NCBI GenBank assembly: GCA_017461345.1
Contig: JAFTYP010000007.1
Span: 42,291 to 106,290, forward strand
Direction of reading: 5' to 3'
DNA length: 64,000 bases
Origin: Bacteroidaceae bacterium
GTDB lineage: Bacteria > Bacteroidota > Bacteroidia > Bacteroidales > Bacteroidaceae
Each line of letters begins with the position of its first letter. The stretch's first letter is position 1. Shown here in pieces: positions 1,463 through 61,528 of this stretch. The notes beneath the pieces are model-generated. The model had not been told where the DNA came from and made no database searches. It saw only the letters and a program-made list of their open reading frames with translations. Both the position numbers and the translations under genes were made by a program.

Positions 1463-1594
1463 GAACTTCTACAGCCTGAATGAGAGACATCTACTGCCTT
1501 GTTGCAAATAATGCTGAACCATTATTTGCGAGAAGCCATTCCCCGTTGCTGCAAAGGCTGCTTTTTGTTGCAAAACATGCTGCTCCCGATTCTG
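1463..1594. repeat. 22-bp-period intergenic array, six units
   Basis: Units start at 1463, 1485, 1507, 1529, 1551 and 1573, each exactly 22 bp. Unit 2 carries ACATCTACTGCC, the word also found at 58273 and 61441. Unit 3 carries ATAATGCTGAACCATTAT, close to the word at 9186, 33440 and 37328. Several units end in a TTGC-type linker. The array fills much of the 480-bp gap between the converging GH30 and MBL genes; I see no gene and no ordinary terminator in that gap. Confidence 0.75.
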
Positions 1595-1655
1595 ACAAAA
1601 CGATAGGCTAAACGGCTTTTTCCTGACAATTTGTTTTCACGGAAGGCGAAAGGTG

Positions 1656-2294
1656 TCAGGCATAAGGATTGTTCTGTTTCTCCCAGCCGATAGTGGTGGA
1701 CGGTCCGTGTCCCGTAAGTACAACGGTGTCGTCCGGCAGGCAGAAAAGTTTGTTCTTAATGCTGTCCAACTCATCTTCGTAACTTCCTCCAGGCAAATCG
1801 GTGCGCCCAATGCTCTCTCGGAAGAGAGTGTCGCCACTGAAGAGCAGTCCTGCATCGGGAATGTAGAATACAGAAGAACCGGGCGTGTGGCCGGGCGTGT
1901 GGATGAGACGAACGGCAGTTGTGCCGAGAAGCAGTTCGTCGCCGTCGGAAAGCAGTTGCCCGATGGCCGGCATACCACCTCCCATGTTCAGCCCGAACCT
2001 CGCCGCCATGCTCGGCATCTGGCGGTAAACGTCGGCTTCGTCCTTATGTAAAATGGGCTTCAGCCCGTATGTGCGGTGTACGAATGGCAGGCCGAAGGTG
2101 TGGTCGAAGTGTGCGTGCGTCTGCAAGACATACTTCAATTTCAGCCCAAGTGCCTCTATGCTGCCTGCCAGCGACTGCTCCTCCTGCCTGTCCCAGGCGC
2201 CGGTATCCACAATGGCAGCCTCCAGTGTCTGCTCGTCCCAAAGCAGATAGGTGTTCTCCTGGACAGGGTTGAATGTAAAAGATTGATATTTCAT
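1656..2294 (-). CDS. MBL-fold metallo-hydrolase, glyoxalase II-like
   Basis: A 212-residue single-domain metallo-beta-lactamase-fold protein. The metal-binding motif THAHFDH lies near residues 59-65, and the later ligands are in HTPGHTPGS (~133) and the SGDTLF and TGHG segments. Family members hydrolyse thioesters such as S-lactoylglutathione or bacillithiol/persulfide adducts; the true substrate cannot be read from sequence. The length fits the short stand-alone YcbL-like group. It precedes rsmG on the same strand by 70 bp, so the two may be co-transcribed. Start ATG at 2294. No signal peptide, so cytoplasmic. Confidence 0.85.
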   Translation of the reverse strand: MKYQSFTFNPVQENTYLLWDEQTLEAAIVDTGAWDRQEEQSLAGSIEALGLKLKYVLQTHAHFDHTFGLPFVHRTYGLKPILHKDEADVYRQMPSMAARFGLNMGGGMPAIGQLLSDGDELLLGTTAVRLIHTPGHTPGSSVFYIPDAGLLFSGDTLFRESIGRTDLPGGSYEDELDSIKNKLFCLPDDTVVLTGHGPSTTIGWEKQNNPYA

Positions 2295-2363
2295 GTTGCA
2301 ATGAGGCTTTAGGTTGTGTAAGAATAAGATTGACGGTTGATGGGTTTTAATAGCAGTTCGTCC

Positions 2364-2990
2364 TCAAAGAGGCAGATAGACCACTTTCTTCGTCTCGAAG
2401 AATTCCTCCTCGAAAAATTCGTTGAGCGAAGTAATTTGGGCTGCTTTCCCAAAAGGCTTCGCCTCCTGCTCCAGTTCGCCACCCTTAAGGCAGATGAGGC
2501 CGTTGGGCAGACCATTGAACTGCTCGCCGCTGATAGATTTGCGAATTATCTTTACGAGGTCGGGCAAAGGCATAACGGCTCTCGACACAACGAAGTGGAA
2601 CTTCTGCTTCACCTCCTCGGCACGGCACCACTGTGTCGTTACGTTCTCCAACCCCAAAGCACTCGTCACCTCCTGACACACACGTATCTTCTTGCCAATG
2701 GAGTCAACCAGATGGAACCGAACCTCCGGAAACATGATGGCAAGCGGAATGCCCGGAAAGCCGCCACCCGTGCCGAGGTCCATAATGCTCGTGCCGGGTT
2801 TGAAGCGAATCAGTTCGGCAATGGCAAGGCTGTGCAGAACATGATGTTCGTAGAGGTTGTCGATGTCCTTGCGCGAGATGACGTTAATCTTGCTGTTCCA
2901 GTCGCGATAAAGCGCATCGAGGGCAGCAAACTGCTTCTTCTGCCTCTCGGTCAGAGAAGGAAAGTATTTGGAAATAATCTCGTTGTTCAC
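2364..2990 (-). CDS. rsmG: 16S rRNA (guanine-527-N7)-methyltransferase RsmG
   Basis: Methylates G527 of 16S rRNA using S-adenosylmethionine. The Rossmann SAM motif DLGTGGGFPGIPLA is clear, preceded by NVISRKDIDNLYEHHVLHSL, which is characteristic of RsmG/GidB. About 208 residues, the usual length. The open frame runs upstream to 3212 but there overlaps the antiporter gene in another frame. Homology begins at VNNEIISKYFPSLTERQKK, so I place the start at a GTG at 2990; there is no ATG nearby. It follows the antiporter by ~32 bp and is probably in the same operon. Confidence 0.9.
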   Translation of the reverse strand: MNNEIISKYFPSLTERQKKQFAALDALYRDWNSKINVISRKDIDNLYEHHVLHSLAIAELIRFKPGTSIMDLGTGGGFPGIPLAIMFPEVRFHLVDSIGKKIRVCQEVTSALGLENVTTQWCRAEEVKQKFHFVVSRAVMPLPDLVKIIRKSISGEQFNGLPNGLICLKGGELEQEAKPFGKAAQITSLNEFFEEEFFETKKVVYLPL

Positions 2991-6195: not shown

Positions 6196-6263
6196 TTTCA
6201 GAACGGTTTTGTGGCTTTTTCGGCCGTTTTATTTAGTATAGGCCGTATAGGATTCGATACACA

Positions 6264-6297
6264 AAGGAAGGCCAAAGTATATGCTTTGGCCTTCCTT
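6264..6297. terminator. Bidirectional hairpin between eda and the sodium symporter
   Basis: A perfect 14-bp stem (AAGGAAGGCCAAAG paired with its complement at 6284-6297) with a TATATG loop, between two converging genes. It probably ends both transcripts. It does not fit the 22-bp unit scheme seen elsewhere. Confidence 0.8.
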
Positions 6298-6312
6298 GTA
6301 TATTATAAGATG

Positions 6313-8970: not shown

Positions 8971-9010
8971 TTGTTGAGGGATATTGATTCGTTTCCTGTG
9001 TTTTTCTCCG

Positions 9011-9018
9011 CAAAGGTA
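9011..9018 (-). promoter_or_regulatory. -7 promoter element for the porin-symporter operon
   Basis: CAAAGGTA on the plus strand reads TACCTTTG on the minus strand, an exact TAnnTTTG match, 41 bp before the porin ATG. Confidence 0.6.
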
Positions 9019-9141
9019 CGAAGATGCGGGCGAAATACAAAATTATTACATAAAAAACATTCAATCCTTTTCTCTCTTGAAACATACCTTGCGGAGCACT
9101 GTGCTTTGGCCTTATGGAAGCCCCCTTGATGTATGCCGTCG

Positions 9142-9229
9142 GGAAAGGTTAAGCATTATTGGCATAATGCTTAACCTTTCCGGCCATAATGCTTAACCAT
9201 TATCGCAAAAATGGTTAACCTAATTCCTG
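9142..9229. repeat. 22-bp-period intergenic array, four units
   Basis: Units start at 9142, 9164, 9186 and 9208. The first two are exact inverted partners: the 18-bp word GGAAAGGTTAAGCATTAT and its reverse complement, separated by the 4-bp linker TGGC, giving a perfect 18-bp hairpin. Unit 3 carries ATAATGCTTAACCATTAT, a self-complementary word shared with 33440 and 37328. Linkers are TGGC, GGCC and CGCA. It lies in the 448-bp divergent gap between the porin and map, where it cannot be a simple 3'-end terminator. Nothing else is seen in the gap besides the promoters. Confidence 0.85.
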
Positions 9230-9385
9230 CGACACCTGCAGCAGTCTTCTCGCGTTGCTCTAAGTCGTTAATTATAAATATGGTATCCGATGGGCGAATG
9301 GCCTAACATATCTGCCTGTTGCCGTGCGGGAGATAAAACTCAATCAAATTCCAATCCCCGATTTCCGTATCTCAATAATTCTTTG

Positions 9386-9393
9386 TAATTTTG
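9386..9393 (+). promoter_or_regulatory. -7 promoter element for map-tsaD
   Basis: TAATTTTG, an exact TAnnTTTG match, 26 bp before the map ATG. Confidence 0.6.
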
Positions 9394-9418
9394 CAGACGA
9401 ATTGCAAAGAGGCAGTCA

Positions 9419-11447: not shown

Positions 11448-11477
11448 TAACCGTCAACACCGCGAGTCAACCATACA

Positions 11478-11521
11478 AATTAAGCCTGTTAGGTTCGCAG
11501 ACCTAACAGGCTTAATTTACC
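11478..11521. repeat. Two inverted 22-bp units forming a bidirectional terminator
   Basis: AAATTAAGCCTGTTAGGT (11477-11494) pairs perfectly with 11501-11518 across a 6-base loop, an 18-bp stem between the stops of tsaD and tamB. Divided at 11500 it becomes two 22-bp units with linkers CGCA and TACC. The second word, GACCTAACAGGCTTAATT, differs at only three positions from the unit word at 46395 (GACTTAACAGGTTAAGTT). So this terminator appears to be a minimal two-unit version of the arrays found at the other intergenic sites. Confidence 0.8.
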
Positions 11522-11530
11522 TATATACCC

Positions 11531-17692: not shown

Positions 17693-17824
17693 TTCACATA
17701 AGAACTGTTTCCCGACTTGGCAGTAGATGTTTCCATGTCTCTGCAGTAATTTACAAATTACACTCGTGTAGTTTGAGAAGTTCACACGTCCGTTTTCCTG
17801 TTTTCACGCGTCTATTTTGGCGAA
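17693..17824. repeat. 22-bp-period intergenic array, six or more units
   Basis: Units start at 17693, 17715, 17737, 17759, 17781 and 17803. The second holds ACTTGGCAGTAGATGTT, shared with 46462, 58317 and 61507. The last three share a TTCACACG/TACACTCG start like the units at 43931 and 54033. Units 3 and 6 are degenerate, and weaker in-phase sequence may continue to about 17868. This is the 777-bp divergent gap between the SQR-like gene and the 259-residue hypothetical gene. The rest is AT-rich with no convincing gene. Confidence 0.65.
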
Positions 17825-25422: not shown

Positions 25423-25457
25423 TAGAATCGTAGGTTCTTCCTACAATAACCTATACT

Positions 25458-25499
25458 AATCGGCTGCATGCTTGATGCTAAATCAAGTGGCAGCCGATT
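25458..25499 (+). terminator. Terminator of the nqr operon
   Basis: AATCGGCTGC pairs with GCAGCCGATT (25490-25499), with an inner CTTGAT/ATCAAG stem, followed by a short T run. It starts 36 bp after the nqrF stop. Confidence 0.75.
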
Positions 25500-25585
25500 T
25501 TCTGTATTATCTTTTTGCCTTGTGCGCCATGGTGTGACTTAAATCCGCTCTGTTTGATTCATCGATGAATTCAGGGCGATATTCA

Positions 25586-25739
25586 GACTTCTACAAAGGT
25601 GTAGAATTGTTATCCTATGCGTGCTTGAAAATCATATACTGCTAAATTGCTCAATTAGGCGTGCCTAATCCGCCAATTAGGTGTACCTTGTTTGCAAACT
25701 TTGCAGTAGATGTTTTCGAGGATTGTATGCTTTTAATCG
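25586..25739. repeat. 22-bp-period intergenic array, up to seven units
   Basis: In-phase starts at 25586, 25608, 25630, 25652, 25674, 25696 and 25718. Clear units are 25586 (dyad TTCTAC-GTAGAA), 25652 (perfect dyad ATTAGGCGTGCCTAAT, linker CCGC), 25674 (AATTAGGTGTACCTTGT, linker TTGC) and 25696 (ACTTTGCAGTAGATGTT). Those between are weak and are counted only because the phase is kept. The array occupies the 575-bp gap between nqrF and the large surface protein; otherwise the gap holds the nqr terminator and one promoter. Confidence 0.7.
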
Positions 25740-25847
25740 GTCACTGATTTTTATATATACAAGAAATCCTTATAATCCCATTATAAAAAGGAAAACGATT
25801 CTGTTCTTTTTGCTACCAAAATAGAGTAAATAAAATACCGAAATATG

Positions 25848-25878
25848 TTGTCTTTCTGCCAAAATTTTAGTAATTTTG
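25848..25878 (+). promoter_or_regulatory. Promoter of the 1156-residue surface protein gene
   Basis: TTG at 25848-25850, 20 bp, then TAATTTTG at 25871-25878: a good -33/-7 Bacteroidetes promoter. The ATG lies 120 bp further on, leaving a long 5' leader. Confidence 0.6.
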
Positions 25879-25997
25879 CATCTCATTTTGGACTAATATC
25901 CCTTTTCGTGGAGTCAACTGTGGCTCAATGAAGAGGAGAATAAGGCGCATTAATAGGAGTAAAAACAAAAGGAAACAATTATTTAATTATTTACATT

Positions 25998-28900
25998 ATG
26001 AATTATTTAAAAATTAGTCGTATTCTTATTGCGACATGCTTTTGCATGATTGCCGGACAGAATGCTGTCAAAGCACAGAACGGCAATCCACATACCCTGG
26101 TAGGGGATGTGACATTTAACAATGTTGTCCTTAGTTGGAAGGCACCTGCCACTGACATTACATTGCAATGGCACGATGGCGAAGACTACAATGGCACGGA
26201 CGGTGTTTTGTCAGACCCTCAAGGTAGTGTGGTTTATTACGTTGCCAACAAGTTCACGAAAGAAGATCTCCAGAATTATGTCGGCGAAGTTATAGACAGC
26301 ATGTCTTTCTTCGAGTATCGTCCTGCTTATAAGGTTACAGCCCTGATTTATGAGAATGGAGAACCTGTTGTAGAGCAGAATGTAGACTTGTCAAACTTCA
26401 AAAAGAACACAGTTCGTAAGTTTGCCCTGAGCAGCCCTTATACTATTCCGGCAGAGAAGGAACTAATGTTTGTCATTAGGTACGAATATGGTAGCAACCA
26501 GGATTTCATGGCTATCTGCGACAGGACTCCCACACCTGGAAAGGGCAACCTCTATTCCTATGATGGCAAGACATGGAACAACGACGGCCCTGGCGACTAT
26601 CTCGTTACTGCTTATATCAAGAACAATACCGCTGCTGATGCAACTCCCGAAGGATATAATGTGTACAGAGATGGTGTTAAGGTAAACGAGGCTCCTGTTG
26701 CTGAAACCACAGCCACTCTCAATGGCGAGACAACAGGAACACATCAATACTATGTTGCTGCTGTATATGGCACAACAGAAAAGCAATCAAAGCCCGTTTC
26801 TCTTTATTGCGCACCGGTGACTGATTTTGTTCCCCCTGTTTCTTCCATAAAAGCATCTAAAGAAGACCTTAACGGCACAATAGAATGGACTGCACCTCTT
26901 GGCCGTTCAAACGAAATCACCTGGTCAAACAAAGAGTACAGCACTACCATTGGCGGTACCAGTTCCAGCCCCAAAGTATGGATTAAACAGGAATTCGATG
27001 CAAACGACATGATAGCATATCCCAATCATAAGATTACTGCCATCAACTCATTCATCAATGGTCCTATAACCGGCATTACCTTGTTTGTTATCAAGAATGG
27101 TGTCATCGACTACCATCAGCCCATTGAGGCTGCTGCGTTAGAGAGCATTGTAAACAACTCTTGGAACAAGTTCACACTCACTACTCCCTATAAGTTCGAG
27201 GCAGGCAATAAGTATTCATTCGGTATTTATTATACACATGCTAAGGGTGAGAAACCCATCGCGGTTGACAACTCTGCCGGCGTAGATGTAAAGGGTAACA
27301 GTTTCTCTACTTCTTCACCCAAATCTGCAGGTTTCGAAAAGACCACTCCTTCTTGGAAAACATTGGCATCCGGCAACATCCCCGGTAACTTCATGCTTAC
27401 CGCAGACATCGAGGCTGATGGCGAAGTCGCTCCAGCATCAGAAATCACCGGATATGACATCTATCGTGACGGCAACCTGATTGCTTCTGATGTGAAGGAG
27501 TTGAAGTACACCGACACCGTAACAGATCTCGGTACGTATCTCTATGGAGTAGTCAGCAAAGGTAAGGACGGCAAGGTTTCGCCGGCCAAGGAAATCAGCA
27601 TCACTTACACTCTCCCTGCTACCTACGAGGCTCCTGTCATTATCTCCAGTTCTTACGAGAACAACGAGTTGAATATCTCATACACCTCTGACGCCTATGA
27701 ACTCAAGCACTATGGCACACCAACATATATGGCCGGATTCGCTGAGGAGATGCCCGACCTTCTCTATGGTGCCAAGTTTACGAAGGAGGAACTTGCCGAC
27801 TATGTTGGATATGAATTCAATTCCTTGAAGTTTGCTATCGGTTCCGGTATTACAACCTTCAACCTTGAGGTTTATGAGTCTGGCAATACTACTCCCATTT
27901 ATTCCGAAAAGATGGAAGGAATAGAGGCAGGCTATCTTTACACCACATCTCCTTCTTCAAAGATTGTCATTCCTGCAGACAAAGACCTCTATCTCGTTTA
28001 CAAAGCAACACTGCCTGCAAGTGCTTCTGGCATTATCCTCGACGATGGTCCTGCTCATGAGAACGGTGCTGTCGTTAGTCTTAGCGGAGGTGCAAATTGG
28101 TTGAAGTTGGGAACCATCTCTCCCGACCTGAAGGACTACAATATCGTTATCAGCGCCATTGCAGTTCCTTCTTCTGACGATGCCAAGGGTGCCGCCAAGG
28201 CCAAGCAAGTAGTTTTGGGCAACAATCCCGAAAAGTTGGCTGGTATGTCCGAGAGAATTGTCAGCAAGGTAAATACTGCAAATGCTTCTGCAGACGACGA
28301 GTTTGGCATCGAGGCAGCCGTTAAGCCTGCCAAGAAGGCTGTGAAGAAAGCTGCAGGCAAGCCCAAAGCCGTATCCTACCGTGTTTATTGCAACAACGAG
28401 ATTAAGTACGAAGGTACATCTGCAACCTACACAGAAACTATCAGCGAGTATGGCGTGTTCAACTATTACGTTACAGCCATCTTCGAGAAGGGTTGGGAAT
28501 CTCCTGCAAGCCGCATCATCACTGTTGAGAATGAAATCAAGCAGGCAACTCCTGCTCCATTCGATCTCGTCGGATACGAGCAGGACGAGAAGTTCAACCT
28601 TACATGGAAGTCTGTTTCGGAGGCTCCAGTGCTGAAGGTTCACAATGGCGATATTGACTGGGTGAATGGTTGTGGCATGACACACTCCAGCGGTACCTCT
28701 AGCGGCTATCAGACCATGTTGATTCCTGCTGCCGATGTTGCCGACAAGGCTGGCATGGAAATCAGCCACATCCGCTTTGGTTTGCTCGACCCCAATGTCT
28801 ATACAGCCTCTGTGATAGTAATGAAGAACGAAAACATTGTCTACGAACAGGCTGTAGATGTTGCCACACTCGTTAAGGGTTGGAACGAGGTTCGCCTTAA

Positions 28901-33367: not shown

Positions 33368-33373
33368 TCCGAA

Positions 33374-33483
33374 AACATCCAACACCCTTATGACCGGAGA
33401 GGTTAACCGTTATCGTTGGAAAGGTTAACCTTTTCGGTCATAATGCTTAACCATTATTTCAGACATGGCAAGCCCTTTTATAA
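33374..33483. repeat. 22-bp-period intergenic array, five units
   Basis: Starts at 33374, 33396, 33418, 33440 and 33462, the first only 7 bp after the M56 stop codon. Unit 2 has GAGAGGTTAACCGTTAT, unit 3 GGAAAGGTTAACCTTTTC and unit 4 ATAATGCTTAACCATTAT; each is a dyad. Unit 1 begins AACATC like the word at 58273. Located between the converging M56 and permease genes. Confidence 0.8.
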
Positions 33484-33506
33484 ATAAGGCTTTTTTCTTA
33501 TAGCAA

Positions 33507-33537
33507 AGATGTCTGTCGGACCATTCGGCAGACATCT
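33507..33537. terminator. Hairpin between the M56 and permease genes
   Basis: AGATGTCTGTCG pairs with 33526-33537 (one G-T pair) across a 7-base loop. It lies 25 bp beyond the permease stop and probably terminates that gene. Confidence 0.65.
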
Positions 33538-33561
33538 GATTGTTTGTGCCGAAATCTGTAG

Positions 33562-37011: not shown

Positions 37012-37012
37012 A

Positions 37013-37044
37013 TTTGGCAGGTTCGAAAGATTATTGTAATTTTG
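37013..37044 (+). promoter_or_regulatory. Promoter of tRNA-Ser
   Basis: TTTG at 37013-37016, a 20-bp spacer, then TAATTTTG at 37037-37044: one of the best -33/-7 matches in the window. The tRNA begins 18 bp later. Confidence 0.7.
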
Positions 37045-37062
37045 CAGACGCACTAATAAAAC

Positions 37063-37152
37063 GGAGAGATGCCAGAGTGGTCGAATGGACCGCACTCGAA
37101 ATGCGGCGTACTCTTACGGGTACCCTGGGTTCGAATCCCAGTCTCTCCGCCA
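37063..37152 (+). tRNA. tRNA-Ser (anticodon CGA)
   Basis: Acceptor stem GGAGAGA (37063-37069) pairs with TCTCTCC (37142-37148), with discriminator G and encoded CCA. Anticodon stem CCGCA/TGCGG encloses the loop CTCGAAA with anticodon CGA at 37097-37099, reading UCG. A long variable arm, as expected for tRNA-Ser, precedes the T arm GGGTTCGAATCCC. Confidence 0.97.
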
Positions 37153-37156
37153 AGAT

Positions 37157-37180
37157 AGGACACCATCGAGGTGTCCTTTC
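37157..37180 (+). terminator. Terminator of tRNA-Ser
   Basis: AGGACACC pairs with GGTGTCCT across ATCGA, followed by TTC, just 4 bp after the tRNA CCA. Confidence 0.75.
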
Positions 37181-37261
37181 TGCCTTACTTGTGTTGTCTT
37201 CCGCAAACAATTCCTCGGGGGAAATGTATCTTTCTTGAATTCGTCCCAATCGTAATGAAAA

Positions 37262-37349
37262 ATAATGGTTAAGCATTATTGGCAAAATGCTTAACCATTA
37301 TGGGCGGAAAGGTTAACCTTTATTATAATAATGCTTAACCATTATTTAT
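37262..37349. repeat. 22-bp-period intergenic array, four units
   Basis: Starts at 37262, 37284, 37306 and 37328. Units 1 and 2 are inverted partners: ATAATGGTTAAGCATTAT against AAAATGCTTAACCATTAT, across the linker TGGC. Unit 3 holds the dyad GGAAAGGTTAACCTTT, unit 4 ATAATGCTTAACCATTAT. Located between tRNA-Ser and the converging SLC13-type gene. Confidence 0.85.
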
Positions 37350-37384
37350 GAGAAGGTCAGGCATCGCGTTTCTATTCTGTCTCT

Positions 37385-39220: not shown

Positions 39221-39287
39221 TGTCTGTTGTTTCTTTTTTCGTTATATATTTGGGAGACTACCCGGAACGTGCATTTCTAATTTTGTG

Positions 39288-39295
39288 CAAAAGTA
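39288..39295 (-). promoter_or_regulatory. -7 promoter element for the SLC13-type gene
   Basis: CAAAAGTA reads TACTTTTG on the minus strand, 68 bp before the ATG at 39220. Confidence 0.5.
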
Positions 39296-39568
39296 GATAA
39301 AAAATGCGAAACCTCAAAGCATATTCCAGAATGGCACATGGGGCTTTATGTTTTTTTATTTAAAAACATGAAGAAAATGATGAGGAATGAGGATTGATGG
39401 CATAGTTTTACGACGAATTGTTTTGTGCATATATGCTTTTATGTATGTAGTAGGAGCGCATAATTCAGGAAGAAACAAACCGACAAAATGTAAGTTTTTC
39501 TCAGGTATTTCGGTCTTTTTGTTAATTCTTCCATTGTAAAGAAATGCGACAAAACAAGCCGATTTTTG

Positions 39569-39656
39569 TCATTAGGTACAGGATGTTTGCCAACGAGGCA
39601 CGTCATGTTGCCCAACATGCCACGTTAAGTCTGCCAACGAGGCACGTTAAGTTTTG
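39569..39656. repeat. 22-bp-period intergenic array, four units
   Basis: Starts at 39569, 39591, 39613 and 39635. Unit 1 (ATTAGGTACAGGATGTTTGC) resembles the unit at 25674. Units 2 and 4 share CAACGAGGCACGT, and units 3 and 4 share CACGTTAAGT. Linkers are TTGC, TGCC, CTGC and TTTG. A weaker in-phase unit may follow to 39678. It lies in the 864-bp divergent gap before lysS; see also the gene remnant at 39761. Confidence 0.75.
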
Positions 39657-39760
39657 AATTATCCTACTGCTTTTCGAGCGAAAAATAACGTCGAAAAGTA
39701 AGAATTACCCTATAAAATACGTAGTTTTAGCCAAGTGGAGATTCGGTTTTTCTTAATCAC

Positions 39761-39925
39761 TTATACAAACGAAACCACTAAGTTCTTGTCTTTCAGTATG
39801 TCTTTAATTTGAGAGAGATTTTCGAAAAAAACGCCCCAGGCCATGCCCGATGAGGTTTTAAGCCATTCTGACGCTTCGGCACGAAAACCTTCTGTAAGCA
39901 AATTGCCCAGTTTCGTAACAAATTG
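39761..39925 (-). pseudogene. Possible C-terminal gene remnant
   Basis: A 54-codon stretch with protein-like composition (e.g. TEGFRAEASEWLKTSSGMAW and FFENLSQIKDILKDKN) ends in a stop. On its 5' side it is directly preceded by an in-frame TGA, with no ATG except an internal one. I do not recognise the family. It looks like the tail of a gene whose beginning has been lost, though a small protein from an internal TTG or ATG cannot be excluded. Confidence 0.3.
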
Positions 39926-40011
39926 TCACCATGCAAAAGTCTGCATTTCCAGTGAATAACATCCATACCATAAACAGAAGGAAACAGCCCGACATTGAGG
40001 CTTTCGTGACA

Positions 40012-40041
40012 TTTTGAATTTATAAATTTTGAATTTTGAAA
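40012..40041. repeat. AT-rich repeat shared with the nqrA-nqrB gap
   Basis: TTTTGAATTTATAAATTTTG and the following bases match the reverse complement of the arm at 20657-20680 with minor differences. It overlaps the -33 region of the lysS promoter and so may supply part of it. Confidence 0.5.
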
Positions 40042-40058
40042 TATAAGTCGTACCTTTG
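40028..40058 (+). promoter_or_regulatory. Promoter of lysS-gpsA
   Basis: TTTG at 40028-40031, 19 bp, TACCTTTG at 40051-40058; 27 bp before the lysS ATG. Confidence 0.65.
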
Positions 40059-40084
40059 CCCTCGTATAATTTTATATAATAAAA

Positions 40085-41860
40085 ATGAATATACTCGAAT
40101 TGAGCGAGCAGGAAATCATCCGCCGCAATAACCTTCAGCAGTTGCGCGACTTGGGCATCGACCCATATCCCGCAGCAGAATATCCAACCAACGCATTCAG
40201 TACAGAAATAAAAGAAAGCTTCGTCGACCTGCCCGTAGTAGGTAAAGACGACGAAGGCAACGACATACGTGAAACCGCCACAAGCGAAAACAGTCGCAAT
40301 GTCTGCATTGCAGGTCGCATCATGTCGAAGCGAATCATGGGCAAGGCAGCCTTCGCAGAGCTGCAAGACAGCAAAGGCCGCATACAAGTCTACATCACAC
40401 GCGACGCCCTGGCAAACGGCGAAGACACAACACTCTACAATACCGTCTTCAAGAAACTGCTCGACCTCGGCGACTTCATCGGCATCAAAGGCTATGTCTT
40501 CCGTACACAAACAGGCGAGATCAGCGTGCATGCCATGGAACTGACCGTCCTCTCCAAGAGCCTCAAACCGCTGCCCATCGTCAAAACCGATGCCGAGGGC
40601 AATGTCTACGACTCCTTCGACGACCCAGAACTCCGCTATCGTCAGCGATATGTCGACCTCATTGTAAACGACGGCGTTAAGGATACATTCCTCAAGCGCA
40701 GCATTATCCTGAAAACAATGCGTGCCTTCTTCGACCGTCACGGCTACACAGAAGTGGAAACACCCACATTGCAAGCCATTGCAGGCGGTGCATCGGCACG
40801 CCCCTTCATCACCCACTTCAACGCACTCAACATACCCATGTACATGCGAATCGCCACCGAACTCTATCTCAAACGACTCATCGTCGGTGGTTTCGAAGGC
40901 GTATATGAAATAGGCAAGAACTTCCGTAACGAAGGCATGGACAAGAATCATAATCCGGAATTCACTTGTATGGAACTCTATGTCAGTTACAAGGACTACA
41001 ACTGGATGATGACTTTCACCGAACAACTTCTCGAAGAAATCTGTATTGCCGTCAACGGAAAACCCGAAACGGAAATAGATGGCAAGGTCATCAGTTTTAA
41101 GGCACCCTTCCGCCGACTGCCCATTCTCGACGCCATCAAAGAGAAAACCGGCTACGACCTCAATGGCATGAGCGAAGAAGAGATGCGCGAAGTTGCCAAG
41201 AAATGCGGCATAGAAGTGGATGACACCATGGGCAAAGGCAAACTCATCGACGAGATATTCGGCGAGACATGCGAAGGAACATTCATTCAGCCTACTTTCA
41301 TCACAGACTATCCCGTTGAGATGTCGCCCCTCACAAAAAAGCATCGCTCGAAACCGGGCCTTACCGAACGCTTCGAACTGATGGTGAACGGCAAGGAACT
41401 GGCAAATGCTTATTCCGAGTTGAACGACCCCATAGACCAGGAAGAACGCTTCATCGAACAGATGAAACTTGCAGACAAAGGCGACGACGAGGCAATGGTT
41501 ATCGACCACGACTTCCTGCGTGCACTGCAATATGGCATGCCTCCAACCAGCGGCATCGGCATCGGCATCGACCGTCTTGCAATGCTTCTGACAGGTAAGC
41601 CTTTTATTCAGGAAGTTCTTTTCTTCCCCCAAATGAAACCCGAAGTGAAGGCTCCTCGCGACAAAGACGAACTCTTCCTCGAGAAGGGTGTTCCTTTCGA
41701 CATCATTCCCATCCTCCGAAAAGCAGGCTACAACCTGGTCAGCACCTTGCAAGGCGTTGCTCCCGCCAAGATACAGCAGCAGATAATAGAAATCATCAAG
41801 AAGTATAAACTTGAGGTCGAAAAGCCCTCTCAAGACGTTATTGCTACTTGGACAGTTTAG
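40085..41860 (+). CDS. lysS: Lysyl-tRNA synthetase (class II)
   Basis: Charges tRNA-Lys with lysine. 591 residues: the N-terminal OB-fold anticodon-binding domain ([20 protein letters not shown]) and the class II catalytic core with motif 1 (around [15 protein letters not shown]-type sequence at 210), motif 2 ([20 protein letters not shown]) and motif 3 ([14 protein letters not shown]). The ~75 residues after motif 3 are longer than in E. coli LysS, as is common in Bacteroidetes. The reading frame overlaps gpsA by 13 bp. The long opposite-strand open frame is a shadow caused by codon bias. Confidence 0.96.
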
Positions 41861-42843
41861 GAAACATAGCAGTATTGGGCGGAGGCAGTTGGGCGACGGC
41901 CATTGCCAAGATGCTTCTCGAGAAGAACGACCATATCTGGTGGTACTTCCGACGCGACGACCGCATCGAAGACTTCAAGCGTCTCGGCCATAATCCTGCT
42001 TATCTTACCAGTGTTCACTTTGATGTGGACCGCATTACCTTTGAGAGCGACATCAATAAGGTTGTGGAGGCTTGCCAGACACTTATCTTTGTTACGCCTT
42101 CGCCCTACTTGAAGGGACATCTCAAACGCCTTCATGTTCGTCTACGCGACAAACTGATTGTGACAGCCATCAAAGGCATCGTGCCCGACGAGAACCTCAT
42201 CTGTTCCGATTATTTCAATCAGATGTATAATGTTCCCGAAGAGAATCTTGCAGTACTTGGCGGTCCGAGTCATGCCGAAGAGGTTGCCTTGAACCGACTC
42301 ACCTACCTTACGATAGGCTGTTCTGACCTTGAAAAGGCCAGACTGTTTGCCAAGATGCTTTCCAGCGACTACGTGAAAGCAAAGACAAGCGATGATGTTA
42401 TTGGCATAGAATATGCAAGCGTTCTGAAGAACGTCTATGCCATTGCCTCGGGTATCTGTCATGGATTGAAGTATGGCGACAACTTCCAGGCCGTCCTCAT
42501 CAGTAATGCAATCCAGGAGATGGACCGTTTCCTTAATACCGTACACCCAATAGAACGCAGTATTATCGAAAGCGTTTATACAGGCGACTTACTTGTGACG
42601 GGATACTCCAACTTCAGCCGTAACCGTGTTTTTGGCACTATGATAGGGCAGGGATATAGTGTGAAGAGCGCCCAACTCGAGATGGAAATGATTGCCGAAG
42701 GCTACTTCGCCACCAAGTGCATGAAGGATATCAACAAGCATCTGCACGTCAATATGCCTATCCTCGATGCCGTCTATAACATCCTTTACGAACGTATCAG
42801 TCCCACCATCGAGATTAAACTCCTGAGCGAAGCGTTCAGATAG
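41848..42843 (+). CDS. gpsA: NAD(P)H-dependent glycerol-3-phosphate dehydrogenase
   Basis: Reduces dihydroxyacetone phosphate to glycerol-3-phosphate for phospholipid synthesis. 331 residues; Rossmann motif [17 protein letters not shown], the conserved FVTPSP and TAIKGI, the catalytic Lys region ([18 protein letters not shown]) and NFSRNRVFG. The start is a TTG at 41848 inside the end of lysS (13-bp overlap), since the Rossmann strand begins only six residues later and no ATG is nearby. Co-transcribed with lysS. Confidence 0.93.
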
Positions 42844-42870
42844 ACCCCCTCTAACTCCAAGACCCCCTAA

Positions 42871-42884
42871 CCCCCTTTAGGGGG
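42871..42884. other. C-run/G-run hairpin after gpsA
   Basis: CCCCCTTTAGGGGG, preceded by two further CCCCCT runs, in the 69-bp gap between gpsA and the thioredoxin-like gene. It may act as a terminator. Similar C-rich hairpins are scattered in other Bacteroidetes genomes. Confidence 0.5.
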
Positions 42885-42912
42885 AATATATTATTAATAA
42901 GGTAAAAAGAGC

Positions 42913-43902: not shown

Positions 43903-43908
43903 AACAAG

Positions 43909-44018
43909 CCAAGCAGTAGCGTCTTCAAACTACACACGTGAAGTTTGCAATTTACACACGTGAAGTTTGTGATTTATCCACGTGTCGTTTTGCAATTACC
44001 TACATCTTTCTTTGCGCT
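43909..44018. repeat. 22-bp-period intergenic array, five units
   Basis: Starts at 43909, 43931, 43953, 43975 and 43997, beginning 7 bp after a stop codon. The middle three are near-identical: CACACGTGAAGTTTGCAATT, CACACGTGAAGTTTGTGATT and a variant with CCACGTGTCG. The central CACGTG is itself a palindrome. Units 1 and 5 are weak but hold CAGTAG and CTACATC pieces found in other arrays. Between two plus-strand genes. Confidence 0.8.
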
Positions 44019-44118
44019 TTTATTTTTGTTGTAACTCTACAGGTGCTCAGGCTCAGGCGGAAGACATACATCGAAAGTTCTCTTGCTCGACAATAAGGAG
44101 AAAAACTTAGGTAATTCT

Positions 44119-44149
44119 TTTGTGTTGTGCTTGCTTCTTTGTACCTTTG
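44119..44149 (+). promoter_or_regulatory. Promoter of pgi
   Basis: TTTG at 44119-44122, 19 bp, TACCTTTG at 44142-44149; 37 bp before the pgi ATG. Confidence 0.65.
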
Positions 44150-44185
44150 CGCGCGAATTAGAAATCAACATATAGGTATAAAGAT

Positions 44186-46227: not shown

Positions 46228-46351
46228 TTGACTTTTTTCTTCCGAAACAGGCTGTTTCACTTTCTTTTTGCTACTATGTTTTTCGATGTCTTACGGTGCA
46301 AAATAGAGTGAAAAACGGCTGATTAATCGACATAAAACGGGTTGTTTTACA

Positions 46352-46483
46352 ACTTAACGTGCGCAGTCGGCAAACTTAACAGTAGAAGTTGTTCGACTTA
46401 ACAGGTTAAGTTTTCGTTTTACCTGTACCTTGTTGGGCAGAAAGGCATGGGAAATTTATCCACTTGGCAGTAGATGTTGGGCG
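46352..46483. repeat. 22-bp-period intergenic array, six consecutive units
   Basis: Starts at 46352, 46374, 46396, 46418, 46440 and 46462 with no slip. Four units begin with ACTT: the words are ACTTAACGTGCGCAGT, ACTTAACAGTAGAAGTT, ACTTAACAGGTTAAGT (a perfect dyad around AG) and ACTTGGCAGTAGATGTT. Units 4 and 5 are degenerate but keep the phase. It lies in the 549-bp gap between the converging HAD and GH2 genes, which also holds a terminator at 46623 and no gene. Confidence 0.85.
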
Positions 46484-46622
46484 TTTCCTTTTTCCGATTT
46501 GGATTTTGTGGTTTTTAATGTGTATAGAATCAGCGTGTTATAAATTATTGAAAATTTTTGGATAATCTGTACAGGGGTACAGGCTTATGATTTCGTTGCC
46601 CTTCTCGTGCAACAGAAAAAGA

Positions 46623-46663
46623 ACAGGATGTAAGCAAAAACGACGATTTTGCTTACATCCTGT
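46623..46663. terminator. Long hairpin downstream of the GH2 gene
   Basis: ACAGGATGTAAGCAAAA (46623-46639) is perfectly complementary to 46647-46663 across a 7-base loop. It lies about 114 bp beyond the GH2 stop. It is probably the terminator for the minus-strand glycan operon. Confidence 0.65.
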
Positions 46664-46776
46664 CAAATGCCTTTTGCTCTATTGCAGTGTTGCTCCTTCG
46701 GAATTCAAGAGCCTTCCGTCAACTCGTATGCCTCGGGAAAAACCATTCAGAGCAAGTAGTAGAAACGAAGAGGTGT

Positions 46777-53971: not shown

Positions 53972-53988
53972 AGCCAACTCAAAATCGT

Positions 53989-54090
53989 CTCCAGAGAAGT
54001 TGGCAAATTACTCCAGAGAAGTTGGCAAACTTCACACGAGAACTTTGCAATTTACTCACGAGAAGTTTACGAACTTCACACGTGACAATT
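53989..54090. repeat. 22-bp-period tandem array between slyD-like gene and aroC, 4.6 units
   Basis: Units start at 53989, 54011, 54033, 54055 and 54077 (partial). The first two are nearly identical (CTCCAGAGAAGTTGGCAAA). The next two are CACACGAGAACTTTGCAA and CTCACGAGAAGTTTACGAA. The fifth begins CACACGTGAC, like the units at 43931. Begins 18 bp after the stop and ends 31 bp before the aroC start. The array is open in the aroC frame, which creates a false N-terminal extension. Confidence 0.88.
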
Positions 54091-58101: not shown

Positions 58102-58108
58102 AGTGATG

Positions 58109-58116
58109 CAAAGGTA
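58109..58116 (-). promoter_or_regulatory. -7 promoter element for the GHL10-ygjP-nuclease operon
   Basis: CAAAGGTA reads TACCTTTG on the minus strand, only 7 bp before ATG 58101, suggesting a very short or absent leader. The earlier in-frame ATG at 58206 lies upstream of it. Confidence 0.55.
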
Positions 58117-58272
58117 CGAAAAAACGCTGATACGACAAAGAAAAGAAATAAAAAAGCGAGCCTCCGGATGCAAACGAGTTCGCTTTCCTGCCGGCCGATG
58201 TGACAAGGTATGTTGTTTTGTGTTTTTATCACTTCAATTCCTTGCCTGCAAACGCCTTTTGGGCTGCCCGAA

Positions 58273-58360
58273 AACATCTACTGCCAAGTTGGGCAAAATG
58301 GTTAACCTTTCCGGGCGACTTGGCAGTGGATGTCGGGCAATTTGCCAGTAGATGTTTTCG
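58273..58360. repeat. 22-bp-period intergenic array, four units
   Basis: Starts at 58273, 58295, 58317 and 58339; linkers GGGC, GGGC, GGGC and TTCG. Unit 1 is AACATCTACTGCCAAGTT; unit 3 is close to its reverse complement (GACTTGGCAGTGGATGTC). Unit 2, between them, is AAAATGGTTAACCTTTCC from the other word class. Unit 4 is AATTTGCCAGTAGATGTT. It lies in the 387-bp divergent gap between the GHL10 gene and uvrA. Confidence 0.88.
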
Positions 58361-58392
58361 TGGAGGCAAAGGCTATATTTGAATCGCCTGAT

Positions 58393-58423
58393 TTTGTATA
58401 TCGGATTTTATTTCGTAACTTTG
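58393..58423 (+). promoter_or_regulatory. Promoter of uvrA
   Basis: TTTG at 58393-58396, 19 bp, TAACTTTG at 58416-58423; 65 bp before the ATG at 58489. Confidence 0.65.
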
Positions 58424-58488
58424 CAGTTTGAAACATTCGGCACCTGCACTGGAGGGTGTCTGCGTGAAGTGATAATGTGAGGTCAGAA

Positions 58489-61419
58489 ATGGAAGACAGC
58501 ATACAGATAAAAGGGGCTCGGGTCAATAACCTGAAGAACATCGACCTGAAAATTCCCCGTGGCAAACTGGTTGTCATAACGGGTTTGAGCGGCAGCGGAA
58601 AGAGCAGCCTGGCTTTCGATACGCTATATGCCGAAGGACAACGCCGCTATGTGGAAAGCCTTAGTTCATATGCCCGTCAGTTTCTGGGCAGAATGAACAA
58701 GCCGGAGTGTGACTACATCAAGGGCATTCCGCCAGCCATTGCCATAGAACAGAAGGTGACGAGCCGTAATCCCCGAAGCACAGTCGGCACCAGTACGGAG
58801 ATATACGAGTACCTTCGTCTGCTTTTTGCCCGCATTGGTCGCACCTTTTCGCCTGTCAGCGGAAAAGAAGTGAAACGCCATACCACCGAAGATGCCTTGC
58901 AGTGTATGCTCTCTCAGCCAGAGGGAACGAAACTCATGGTGATGTGTCCCATTCGTATGCCCAAAGGCAGAACACTCGCCGAGCAACTCGACATGTATCG
59001 CAAAAGCGGCTTTGCACGCATATATTCCAACGGAGAAGTTGCCCGGATAGAAGACGTCGATGCCTCGGCAGCCTCACCTTCCGCACTTTTTTTCCTGGTC
59101 ATCGACCGACTTTCCTGTGGCAACGATCGCGACACCATTGCCCGACTCGTAGATTCCTGTGAGACAGCATTCTACGAAGGTCATGGCGAAGCAGTCCTTC
59201 AGTTCGTACCTGGTGGCGAGAGACACGAGTTTTGTACCCGCTTTGAGGCAGACGGCATTACCTTCGAAGACCCTTCCGACAAACTCTTTGCCTTTAATTC
59301 TCCCATCGGAGCCTGTCCCGAATGCGAAGGCTTCGGCAAGGTCATCGGCATAGACGAAGAGATGGTCATACCCAACACCGCCTTGAGCCTCTACGACGGG
59401 GCAGTGATGTGCTGGCGAGGCGAAAAGATGAGTGAGTGGAAAACATGGTTCATCCGTTTCAATTCCGAACGCGGTTTCCCCATCTTCAAACCATACTTCG
59501 AACTGACACAAGAAGAGAAAGACTGGCTTTGGCACGGCGTTCCAACCATGTTCCCTGTGCCTTCCAATGGAACAGGGCAACTTAAGAAGGAAACTTTGGG
59601 CGGCAAAGAAGTGCTCGTCCCTGCCGATTGGCAGATATTTCCCGAGGAACGTGAGTGGGGATTGATGTCCATTGATGCCTTCTTCGACTTCCTCCGACAG
59701 GGACAATACAAGATACAGAACCGTGTTATGCTCGCCCGATATCGTGGAAAGACAGTCTGCCCCAAATGCCACGGCACACGACTCCGCCCCGAAGCGAACT
59801 ACGTGAAGGTAGGCGGCAAGAGCATTACCGAACTTGTCAACATATCTGTCAGCGAGTTGTTGCCTTGGGTGGAAAACCTCAACCTCAACGAACACGAGGA
59901 AAAGATTGCTAAACGCATCCTCACAGAGATAAGGAATCGACTGCAATACCTGTTGGATGTCGGTTTAGGTTACCTTACTCTCAATCGTACTTCCAACAGC
60001 CTTTCGGGCGGCGAGAGCCAGCGCATCAACCTTGCTACCTCTTTGGGAAGCAGTCTTGTGGGCAGCCTTTACATCCTGGATGAACCGAGTATCGGCCTGC
60101 ATAGCCGTGATACGGAACGTCTCATCAAGGTGCTGAAGCAGTTACGCGACCTGGGTAATACGGTTATTGTGGTAGAGCATGACGAAGACATCATACGGTC
60201 TGCCGACTGGCTTATCGACATCGGTCCGGAGGCTGGACGCTTGGGCGGTGAGGTGGTTTATCAAGGTCCTCCGCCAATGTCTGCTTCCGACTCTCCACAG
60301 GACATGGAGGGGAGCAAGTCTCATACTCTTGCTTTTCTGACGGCTTCCTCCGGCAATGCTGAAGCAGAGGGTGGTTATATTCCTCTTCCTGCTACTCGTA
60401 GGAAGACGAACAGTTATATCGAGGTGAAGGGGGCGCGCGCCAATAATCTGAAAGGTATTGATGTTCGTTTCCCGCTTGGCGTAATGACTTGTGTTACCGG
60501 GGTAAGCGGAAGTGGCAAGAGCAGTCTTGTTCGTGACATTTTCTATAATGCCATGAAACGGCAACTCGATGAGGTTGCCGATCGTCCGGGCGAGTTCATC
60601 GGCCTGGAAGGCGACACGAAGATGGTGAGTGCCATTGAGTTTGTCGACCAGAATCCTATAGGAAAGAGTACGCGCTCCAATCCTGTTACTTATGTCAAGG
60701 CCTGGGACGAGATACGCAAACTCTATGCCGACCAGCCTCTTGCCAAGCAGATGGGCTATACGCCTGCTTTCTTCAGTTTCAATACAGACGGCGGTCGTTG
60801 CGAGGAGTGTAAGGGCGATGGCACCGTCACCATCGAGATGCAGTTTATGGCCGACCTGGTGTTGCCCTGCGAAAGTTGTCATGGGCAGCGTTTCAAGCAG
60901 GAGATTCTGGATATACGCTACAATGACAAGAATGTCTGCGACGTACTTGATATGACCATCAACCAGGCCATTGAGTTCTTTACCCAGTACAAGCAGAAGC
61001 GTATTGTTTCGCTGCTCAAGCCTTTGCAGGACGTCGGTCTCGGTTACATCAAACTCGGCCAGTCTTCCTCTACGCTGTCGGGCGGTGAAAATCAGCGAGT
61101 GAAACTTGCCTACTACCTTGGCATGGAGAAGCATGCACCAACGGTTTTCATTTTCGACGAGCCTACGACGGGACTTCATTTCCACGACATACGTAAGTTG
61201 CTTGCCGCTTTCGATGCACTCATAGCGAGGGGGCATACGCTTGTCATCATCGAGCATAATCTGGAAGTCATCAAGTGTGCCGACCACATTATCGACCTCG
61301 GACCCGAAGGTGGCGACGCCGGCGGTAACCTTCTTGCCACAGGAACTCCCGAGGAAGTGGCAAGGTGCGAGGGCAGTTATACAGCACGGTTTTTGAAGGA
61401 GAAACTGCCTGCCGTCTGA
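58489..61419 (+). CDS. uvrA: Excinuclease ABC subunit A
   Basis: Damage-recognition ATPase of nucleotide excision repair. 976 residues from ATG 58489; an in-frame GTG four codons earlier is less likely. Two ABC modules: Walker A GLSGSGKSSL (~residue 35) and GVSGSGKSSL (~675), with signature sequences LSGGESQRINLA and LSGGENQRVKLA. Zinc-binding CPECEG/CPKCHG in the first half and CEECKG/CESCHG in the second. The length is normal. Ends 22 bp before the converging-gene array. Confidence 0.97.
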   Translation: MEDSIQIKGARVNNLKNIDLKIPRGKLVVITGLSGSGKSSLAFDTLYAEGQRRYVESLSSYARQFLGRMNKPECDYIKGIPPAIAIEQKVTSRNPRSTVGTSTEIYEYLRLLFARIGRTFSPVSGKEVKRHTTEDALQCMLSQPEGTKLMVMCPIRMPKGRTLAEQLDMYRKSGFARIYSNGEVARIEDVDASAASPSALFFLVIDRLSCGNDRDTIARLVDSCETAFYEGHGEAVLQFVPGGERHEFCTRFEADGITFEDPSDKLFAFNSPIGACPECEGFGKVIGIDEEMVIPNTALSLYDGAVMCWRGEKMSEWKTWFIRFNSERGFPIFKPYFELTQEEKDWLWHGVPTMFPVPSNGTGQLKKETLGGKEVLVPADWQIFPEEREWGLMSIDAFFDFLRQGQYKIQNRVMLARYRGKTVCPKCHGTRLRPEANYVKVGGKSITELVNISVSELLPWVENLNLNEHEEKIAKRILTEIRNRLQYLLDVGLGYLTLNRTSNSLSGGESQRINLATSLGSSLVGSLYILDEPSIGLHSRDTERLIKVLKQLRDLGNTVIVVEHDEDIIRSADWLIDIGPEAGRLGGEVVYQGPPPMSASDSPQDMEGSKSHTLAFLTASSGNAEAEGGYIPLPATRRKTNSYIEVKGARANNLKGIDVRFPLGVMTCVTGVSGSGKSSLVRDIFYNAMKRQLDEVADRPGEFIGLEGDTKMVSAIEFVDQNPIGKSTRSNPVTYVKAWDEIRKLYADQPLAKQMGYTPAFFSFNTDGGRCEECKGDGTVTIEMQFMADLVLPCESCHGQRFKQEILDIRYNDKNVCDVLDMTINQAIEFFTQYKQKRIVSLLKPLQDVGLGYIKLGQSSSTLSGGENQRVKLAYYLGMEKHAPTVFIFDEPTTGLHFHDIRKLLAAFDALIARGHTLVIIEHNLEVIKCADHIIDLGPEGGDAGGNLLATGTPEEVARCEGSYTARFLKEKLPAV

Positions 61420-61440
61420 ACAAGGCGTGGGTGGTAAAAA

Positions 61441-61528
61441 AACATCTACTGCCAAGTTGCCCGACTTGACAGTAGATGTTGGCCATAATGGTGTGCCAAG
61501 TTGCCCGACTTGGCAGTAGAAGTTTTTT
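61441..61528. repeat. 22-bp-period array filling the uvrA-GHL10 gap, four units
   Basis: Starts at 61441, 61463, 61485 and 61507; linkers GCCC, GGCC, GCCC and TTTT. Units 1 and 2 are inverted partners (AACATCTACTGCCAAGTT with 61464-61480, one mismatch), a 17-bp hairpin. Unit 3 fuses ATAATGG of one word class to TGCCAAGTT of another. Unit 4, GACTTGGCAGTAGAAGTT, pairs with unit 3's right half and is followed by T's. The array is essentially the whole gap between two converging stop codons and probably terminates both genes. Confidence 0.9.

Follow-up and report, generated by a model that had tools for sequence, protein, structure and literature searches.

The intergenic regions (IGRs) of the stretch analysed here, a window of 64,000 nucleotides from a Bacteroidaceae bacterium (contig C24:42291-106290 of a 2.07-Mb, 32-contig assembly, G000, that is 72.8% complete), contain arrays of short dyad units that succeed one another at a pitch of 22 bp. 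An earlier, sequence-only reading had described thirteen such sites, and when written out in 22-bp rows all thirteen display an 18-bp word and a 4-bp linker plainly (Table 1). Tandem Repeats Finder reports period 22 at eight of them (9166, 37264, 39585, 43931, 46374, 53989, 58312 and 61454), and a scan with profiles of five word classes (A to E) recovers in-phase arrays of at least two units at twelve; the words at 11478, AATTAAGCCTGTTAGGTT and GACCTAACAGGCTTAATT, fall outside all five classes, and this site is entered as array-free in the statistics. By the same profiles, 15 of the 27 window IGRs of at least 60 bp are without an array of at least two units.

While the sites stand, some details of their first description do not: the starts given as 1463, 25586 and 53989 move to 1486, 25653 and 53984; at 17693 the strict pitch is broken by a 20-bp step before a weak unit (8.7 bits); and at 46352 the units are not all consecutive. 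The array at 53984 begins 13 bp past a stop codon, and the IGR around the array at 37262 also contains a tRNA (37063-37149, Rfam).

Table 1. Array sites of the window, with word classes in brackets. G342 is a sister species, syntenic with G000 and 91% identical to it across the 9.6 kb compared.
Position	Array	Intergenic region	Support
1486..1547	3 in-phase units (D, A, weak E)	convergent, 1176-1655	profiles; conserved in G342
9142..9225	4 units, TTAA class	divergent, 8971-9418	profiles, repeat finder; conserved in G342
11478..11517	two-unit inverted pair, 22 bp	convergent, 11448-11530	22-bp rows only
17714..17817	one D unit (17714), 20-bp step, then 4 in-phase B/C units from 17734		profiles
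25653..25714	3 units (E, E, D)	same-strand, 25423-26045	profiles; conserved in G342
33396..33479	4 units (A, A, A, E)	convergent, 33368-33561	profiles
37262..37345	4 units, TTAA class	convergent, 37012-37384	profiles, repeat finder; near-identical in G342
39548..39653	5 units (first two weak), E class	divergent, 39221-40084	profiles, repeat finder; conserved in G342
43928..43989	2 profile units and a third by eye, CACG class	same-strand, 43903-44185	profiles, repeat finder
46329..46478	4 + 2 in-phase units, one degenerate position between	convergent, 46228-46776	profiles; conserved in G342
53984..54067	4 units (B, B, C, C)	same-strand, 53972-54081	profiles, repeat finder; conserved in G342
58273..58356	4 units (D, A, D, D)	divergent, 58102-58488	profiles, repeat finder; conserved in G342
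61441..61524	4 units (D, D, E, D)	convergent, 108 bp, filled between A run and T run	profiles; G342 alike

Phase and unit structure across the genome

A sample comprising the window and further stretches of G000 (851,710 bases, hereafter 852 kb) was passed through a home-made gene caller, which left 347 IGRs of at least 60 bp (121,726 bases). Direct matches between 18-mers (at least 14 of 18 positions) at an offset of 22 bp occur in 111 of these IGRs and at 44 bp in 85, compared with 0, 1, 5, 0 and 3 at the control lags of 19, 20, 21, 23 and 24 bp. Counted as 18-mer windows, lag 22 gives 2042 hits; none occur at lag 23 or in a sample of coding sequence, and three mononucleotide shuffles give 0, 3 and 0. 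The class profiles pick out 145 arrays or singletons from the real IGRs, compared with one from a shuffle. The arrays are confirmed to be real and far more extensive than the thirteen sites of the window, and the excess over shuffled intergenic DNA, which the sequence-only reading had set as its own test, is very large.

The word profiles were trained on the 852-kb sample from chains of 22-bp units and could favour such words, yet training cannot create the spacing, and the scan at 12 bits or more imposes no spacing rule. It returns 488 words, whose 343 successive pairs no more than 66 bp apart lie at 22 bp (331), 44 bp (9), 66 bp (2) or 42 bp (1). Variable spacing of the REP or ERIC kind, an outcome that had been weighed in advance, is not what is seen: 342 of these 343 distances are multiples of 22. 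At 18 bits or more, 350 words lie in IGRs, four in predicted coding sequences (three of the four mutually in phase) and none in shuffled IGRs, which bears out the earlier statement that the arrays lie outside genes.

Within a unit, two 7-bp arms in inverted orientation flank a 4-bp core, and a linker of 4 bp follows. The common cores are TTAA (237), CACG/CGTG (93), CTGC/GCAG (54) and ACTG/CAGT (52), and the common linkers are GCCC, GGGC, GGCA, TGCC and GGCC. The word classes (A, TTAA; B, AACTTCT.CTGC; C, AACTATA/AACTTAA.CACG; D, AACATCT.ACTG.CCAAGTT; E, AACAAGG.CGTG) mix inside single arrays while staying in phase. With weak ends trimmed, arrays have four (74), five (26), three (25), two (8) or six (1) units, with 11 single words besides; several of the five-unit arrays include one weak end unit.

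Conservation, turnover and placement

In 86 orthologous IGRs of G000 and G342, arrays are present in both species in 35 and in neither in 51, and no IGR has an array in one species only. The number of units differs in 10 of the 35 shared pairs, and G342 has one extra 22-bp unit in the array at 43928; the comparison of orthologous gaps for gained or lost units that had been proposed between strains, made here between sister species, therefore finds change in unit number and none in the presence of whole arrays. Over arrays of at least three units, with IGRs longer than 900 bp (1500 bp in G342) excluded, the two species differ at 9.2% of arm positions (166/1803) and 7.0% of core positions (36/516), compared with 23.5% of linker positions (91/388) and 17.5% of the remainder of those IGRs (1856/10628). 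These rates of divergence show arms and cores to be under purifying selection and the linkers to be unconstrained. The five indels within arrays are each exactly 22 bp long; 36 lie outside arrays in the same IGRs, of which 28 are of 1 bp, one of 21 bp and one of 23 bp.

Among more distant relatives the pitch is kept and the words turn over. Hits to the TTAA pair GSTTAACC-N14-GSTTAACC number 352 for G000, 370 for G342, 34 for G328, 32 for G404 and at most three for any other of 139 genomes of the genus; the pair is found in 8 of 301 family genomes, G000 included. DNA free of open reading frames from 24 further members of the genus contains 352 IGRs; 56 of them show lag 22, and 4-5 show each of lags 19, 20, 23 and 24. 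Without the stretches chosen through a TTAA hit, the figures are 33 of 251 against 2-4. Outside the genus, 17 genomes yield 291 IGRs, of which 19, spread over 9 genomes, show lag 22 and 14 show lag 44; every other lag from 15 to 35 gives 1-9. The autocorrelation that the sequence-only reading had proposed to look for in the genome and its relatives is present in both. The words of these relatives include ATAAGTA.CACG.GACTTAT (G331), GTTTCAC.TCGA.GTCAAAC (G010), GCTTTTA.CATG.TACAAGC (G404), and TCAAACA.N4.TGTTTGA and CTAAGTA.N4.ACTTAGG (both G008). At three window sites the orthologous intervals of relatives hold 22-bp arrays of other words: 11478 (1.6-1.8 kb; G331 and G404), 33396 (a gap of 239 bp; G373) and 61441 (1.1-1.3 kb; G408 and G331).

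Two further forms were seen in relatives. Arrays of about 12-14 units in G008 (L201 8508-8815 and L200 8380-8690) are laid out in blocks of AAACA-N4-TGTTT, AAGTA-N4-TACTT and again AAACA-N4-TGTTT. Four species (G404, G331, G166 and G408) have a uniform three-unit form, GC.....CATG.....GC-AATT repeated (L113 8623-8701 and 13719; L114 6785-6860; L179 3708 and 15132; L188 3049 and 17122; L218 330), which may be a more element-like, hairpin-capable relative of the arrays.

Arrays of at least two units occupy 130 IGRs of the 852-kb sample: 45 of 68 convergent gaps, 30 of 73 divergent gaps, and 28 of 106 (++) and 27 of 100 (--) same-strand gaps, so that their occurrence between gene pairs of every orientation holds well beyond the window. 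Length matters: arrays are found in 42 of 54 convergent gaps of at least 120 bp, and among divergent gaps in none of 29 shorter than 250 bp and in 26 of 33 of at least 350 bp. Arrays of at least three units lie at a median of 35 bp from the nearest stop in convergent gaps, 51 bp from the upstream stop in same-strand gaps and 172 bp from the nearest start in divergent gaps. Arrays are also under-dispersed, with seldom more than one per gap. The 53 convergent IGRs of 120-1500 bp contain 44 arrays, with 12 IGRs empty (22.9 expected) and three holding two arrays (10.7 expected); two arrays occur in none of 39 divergent IGRs of at least 300 bp (28 arrays; 6.3 expected) and, among same-strand IGRs of at least 250 bp, in none of 36 in ++ orientation (17 arrays; 2.9 expected) and one of 36 in -- orientation (19 arrays; 3.5 expected).

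What the arrays may be

The pitch could equal an 18-nt stem arm plus a 4-nt loop, as it would if the arrays were bidirectional terminators or other RNA stem-loops, and by eye stems with 4-nt loops and 18, 17 and 16 of 18 possible pairs can be drawn at 9142, 11478 and 61441. Between G000 and G342, however, 51 single changes within words break a pair and 51 create one, with only two double changes preserving a pair. A count over 32 arrays with G-U pairs allowed gives 3, 2, 1, 0 and 0 two-change compensations at arm distances of 1, 3, 5, 7 and 9; single changes that keep a pair through G-U, a point in favour of stem-loops, number 41, 35, 21, 12 and 0 at the same distances. In the 35 arrays made of TTAA words throughout, no pair of arms is positively correlated beyond z 1.8, and neighbouring arms are negatively correlated; in the pooled set and in the non-TTAA set the correlation is positive for every pair, an effect that we ascribe to class composition, and only the all-TTAA set is informative. 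Likeness between adjacent TTAA arms falls short of chance, at 0.116 where 0.179 is expected within words and at 0.058 where 0.190 is expected across linkers. Folded in their real arm order, TTAA arrays reach -27.4 and non-TTAA arrays -25.2 kcal/mol, compared with -30.1 (standard deviation 0.8) and -28.3 (standard deviation 0.9) after permutation within the array, and TTAA arms dealt between arrays also fold better (-31.1). RNA hairpins, whether nested, local or linker-centred, are unsupported by arm correlation, arm identity, permuted-arm folding and compensation alike.

Signs of termination are present at convergent arrays, where A and T flanks are enriched, most strongly in class D (roughly 2.4-2.5 of the 4 flanking bases per side; background, 1.2). 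At divergent arrays the flanks are near background, and A/T flanks near 2 are also seen in small -- groups (n=5 and 6). The same-strand arrays (n=51) have no oriented asymmetry (A upstream 1.41, T downstream 1.39 of 4), and with the asymmetry of a stem followed by a T run absent there, intrinsic terminators are rejected as the general identity. Convergent arrays are faced by 90 stops; an intrinsic terminator is predicted for 42 of these, ending within or at the array in 21 cases, and for 11 of 46 stops in array-free convergent gaps. The gap at 6196-6312 contains a plain hairpin in G000 and, in its place, an array in G331. At gathering scores, Rfam matches the tRNA and nothing else in the window, and the 28 arrays of the longer divergent gaps stand where a terminator is unneeded. 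Some arrays probably double as terminators, and the arrays are a caution when terminators or small RNAs are called in these genomes; as a general function, the RNA processing or termination suggested by the sequence-only reading is unsupported, and we regard stem-loops as a quite improbable explanation.

The reading we favour, with somewhat less than even confidence, is that the arrays are boundary elements bound by a putative protein that would itself assemble in phase. On this view the double-stranded DNA of an array offers a row of dyad sites, as a rule four, lying side by side. Each of these 18-bp dyads would bind one protein dimer; the protein would recognise specific sequence and might be of one kind or a few paralogues, as several word classes in one phase suggest. 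Neighbouring dimers would touch, and the sites would therefore have to lie exactly 22 bp apart; DNA supercoiled in vivo has about 11 bp per turn, of which 22 bp would make two turns. One such rod would stand in most long gaps of the convergent and divergent types and in roughly half of those between same-strand genes, and because arrays occupy gaps of every orientation and rarely number more than one, a boundary or insulating function is suggested. Its likeliest form would be to isolate neighbouring transcription units by stopping read-through and the spread of supercoils. If binding specificity drifts fast between species, the words would change while the geometry stays constant. Among the interpretations first offered for the window, sites for a dimeric DNA-binding protein is the best supported, by the constraint on arms and cores, the freedom of the linkers, the strictness of the phase and the lack of compensation; protein binding, the cooperative dimer and insulation are our inferences.

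Several observations weigh against a protein-bound boundary element. One ordinary regulator fails to explain several classes sharing a phase, so that paralogues must be assumed, and the binder itself is putative. Empty gaps are not rare (12 of 53 convergent at 120-1500 bp, 11 of 39 divergent at 300 bp or more and 37 of 72 same-strand at 250 bp or more); some that appear empty may hold words missed by the profiles, as at 11478. Among orthologous gaps of distant relatives, an array is seen in 4 of 10 whose G000 counterpart holds one and in 5 of 18 whose G000 counterpart is empty by the profiles, some of these intervals being 1-2 kb long and able to span more than one gap; the words of those four arrays differ from those of G000 each time, and array positions turn over across long times. 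Of the single differences at arm distance 3, 63 leave a pair in G342 alone and 28 in G000 alone, an imbalance for which we offer no explanation. Non-TTAA arms dealt between arrays fold more weakly than observed (-23.1 vs -25.2 kcal/mol), which limits the result against hairpins to within-array permutation for that set, and tandem duplication of asymmetric units could yield part of the arm-likeness and folding results, though not the missing compensation. Class D words, finally, form outward-facing inverted ends: over 73 places there are 25 minus-then-plus pairs within 130 bp (67 bp, 15; 45 bp, 7; 23 bp, 2; 89 bp, 1) and no plus-then-minus pair within that distance, an orientation that a plain array of sites does not predict.

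Such ends resemble terminal inverted repeats and speak for an element-like origin, and they may be a trace of past spread; the other classes share no array end beyond AA/TT. A selfish repeat of the REP, BIME or MITE kind, spread in the past by some enzyme, tolerated downstream of genes and growing or shrinking by whole units, would also suit the hundreds of intergenic palindromic copies (by extrapolation), their mosaic words and lineage-specific sequences, their preference for the 3' sides of genes and their absence from short divergent gaps. Some pairs of gaps in distant species, one with an array and one without, differ in length by about a multiple of 22 bp (one pair measures 61 and 127 bp, another 224 and 291 bp). 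We nevertheless hold this explanation to be somewhat unlikely. A recently active element is rejected by the unchanged presence or absence of arrays in all 86 orthologous IGRs of the two species compared, and spread must have taken place in the past; arms are under purifying selection, the palindromes lack compensatory maintenance, and under-dispersion is strong and phase strict across mixed word classes. The array at 37262 has no match in phage or plasmid records, and a viral contig collection contains no TTAA pair and one stretch of B words. The small mobile module proposed for the window is unsupported over the time that separates the sister species and retains in its favour the older turnover and the outward ends of class D. 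Even as a selfish repeat, the arrays would be of a new kind, being strictly phased, keeping up no hairpin and seldom occurring twice in a gap.

We recognised no description of such arrays in the open-access PMC literature (papers are cited here by PMC number, for the parts of them available), and the part of PMC5771137 at hand has nothing on 22-bp repeats. REP, BIME and REPIN elements with RAYT are alike in being short intergenic palindromes of hundreds of copies, lineage-specific and mosaic, with copy number changing by units (PMC2817692, PMC3733652, PMC3116915); the arrays differ from them in their strict phase shared by several classes, in the lack of compensatory palindrome conservation and in their equal presence in the sister species. 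REP dimers lie 20-100 bp apart at no fixed spacing, and REP tags are GTAG or CGTC (PMC3733652). The arrays keep instead to the multiples of 22 bp given above, and among 438 linkers CGTC or its complement occurs in nine and GTAG or its complement in none. Upkeep of the REP kind by complementary mutation is rejected, with 2 compensated against 51 pair-breaking changes within words and six two-change cases over arm distances 1-9. The RAYT or Y1 transposase family PF01797 has no match in G000, at the 72.8% completeness of this assembly.

BrickBuilt, a MITE of Porphyromonas gingivalis with a 23-nt direct repeat, leader, tail and IS5-type inverted ends, in 19 copies in ATCC 33277, is likewise from Bacteroidales, always intergenic and built of tandem 22-23-nt units, and inverted end words are seen here in class D arrays; it differs from the arrays, which are 22-bp dyads of mixed words and, by extrapolation, several hundred in number (PMC4596501). 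A 23-nt repeat of this type is rejected by lag 23, found in none of the 347 IGRs. The same paper mentions 22-nt tandem direct repeats in P. gingivalis W83, their exact locations not identified (PMC4596501); order and unit length are as here, no dyads or phase are described in the part available, and these repeats could be an early sighting of the arrays. CRISPR is rejected, the units being contiguous and diverged, with no spacers. On the features tested, the arrays fall outside REP/BIME, BrickBuilt, CRISPR, intrinsic terminators and Rfam families alike, and identification of the binder could later place them in a known protein class.

Cooperative sites, dyad or iterated, that share one DNA face at a spacing of about two turns are familiar from phage repressor operators, ArgR boxes and plasmid iterons, and these serve one or a few promoters or origins, whereas the present arrays mark a large share of gene boundaries with words that diverge between species. 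If the protein-binding reading is true, part of the Bacteroidaceae would carry boundary elements, encoded in cis and specific in sequence, between a large share of its transcription units, and fixed geometry with freely diverging words would make a natural experiment in the co-evolution of DNA-binding specificity. To our knowledge, E. coli has no such boundary elements. Its protein HU acts in trans, without specific arrays. HU has been described as an insulator of E. coli transcription units that constrains supercoils (PMC4992867), and the likeness is one of proposed role only, the isolation of neighbouring units by supercoil constraint; unlike HU, the arrays would be cis-encoded, sequence-specific sites.

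Regional word classes and other repeats

Class C is unevenly spread. Its words (at most two mismatches) have 71 hits in G000, 20 on contig C10, 22 on C11, 15 on C12, five on C1, four on C32 and five elsewhere, and C10 and C11 together account for 21 of 28 C-class arrays (p=5e-5 relative to length, over the 11 largest of 16 contigs with known length, C12 and other contigs of length unknown being excluded). Permutation of class by contig gives p<5e-5; class B alone is not regional (p=0.70), class D is borderline (p=0.055), and neighbouring arrays are no more alike in class than chance (0.325 vs 0.305). In G342, where 100 of 106 C words are listed along with 78 B words, a hand count places 80 C and 7 B words on contigs C8, C10, C12 and C16, and four C and 52 B words on C1, C5, C15, C17 and C18; this zoning is inherited by descent, and the sister is therefore no independent test. 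Since C1 and C32 of G000 and C19 of G342 hold both classes, a gradient on one replicon is suggested, with a second replicon a possible alternative for the C-class region. The gene dnaA lies in the C zone and parAB in the A/B zone, and GC skew has no clear switch in the contigs read.

Word classes might thus mark chromosome regions for a macrodomain-type organiser, in a positional or segregation code with insulation secondary. The concentration of C arrays on C10 and C11 and the same zoning in G342 are in line with it; we consider it very improbable given the behaviour of B and D, the chance-level likeness of neighbours and the shared descent of the sister. The matS site is a dispersed short palindrome. 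Both MatP/matS and MaoP/maoS are E. coli macrodomain systems with sites tied to one chromosome region, which class C resembles in being regional, and the arrays are phased, whereas maoS is a single site (PMC5023128). Regional word classes would offer a handle on chromosome folding in the phylum. A broader form of the boundary reading, unlikely in our estimate, is a family-wide code of one 22-bp-pitch array per gap, read by fast-evolving, polymerising paralogues, with regional classes giving chromosome addresses as well as insulation.

ParB/parS was a further candidate. The parS site is the 16-bp TGTTTCACGTGAAACA, and no match to it with up to two mismatches occurs in the 852-kb sample, although parAB is present; the chromosomal ParA and ParB genes lie at L058 287-1971 (G000:C26).

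Other repeats accompany the arrays. In the genus members lag 21 counts 36 IGRs (26 without the TTAA-picked stretches), with an excess at lags 14, 28 and 35 as well, which fits intergenic 7-bp tandem repeats, a second periodicity separate from that of 22; the window itself has two period-7 arrays by Tandem Repeats Finder (40011-40040 and 63083-63116). At 42843-42885 a C-rich and then G-rich stretch, CCCCCTAACCCCCTTTAGGGGG, has, among the matches listed, many in genus members at 81-100% identity; by this conservation it appears to be a separate interspersed repeat, whose sequence, unlike the 22-bp words, is kept across species. The leader of the gene at 40085 (40007-40059) combines ATTTTGA repeats with TACCTTTGC; about 48 bp of it have, among the matches listed, many in relatives at 80-97% identity, and the leader resembles what we take to be a stereotyped Bacteroidetes promoter.

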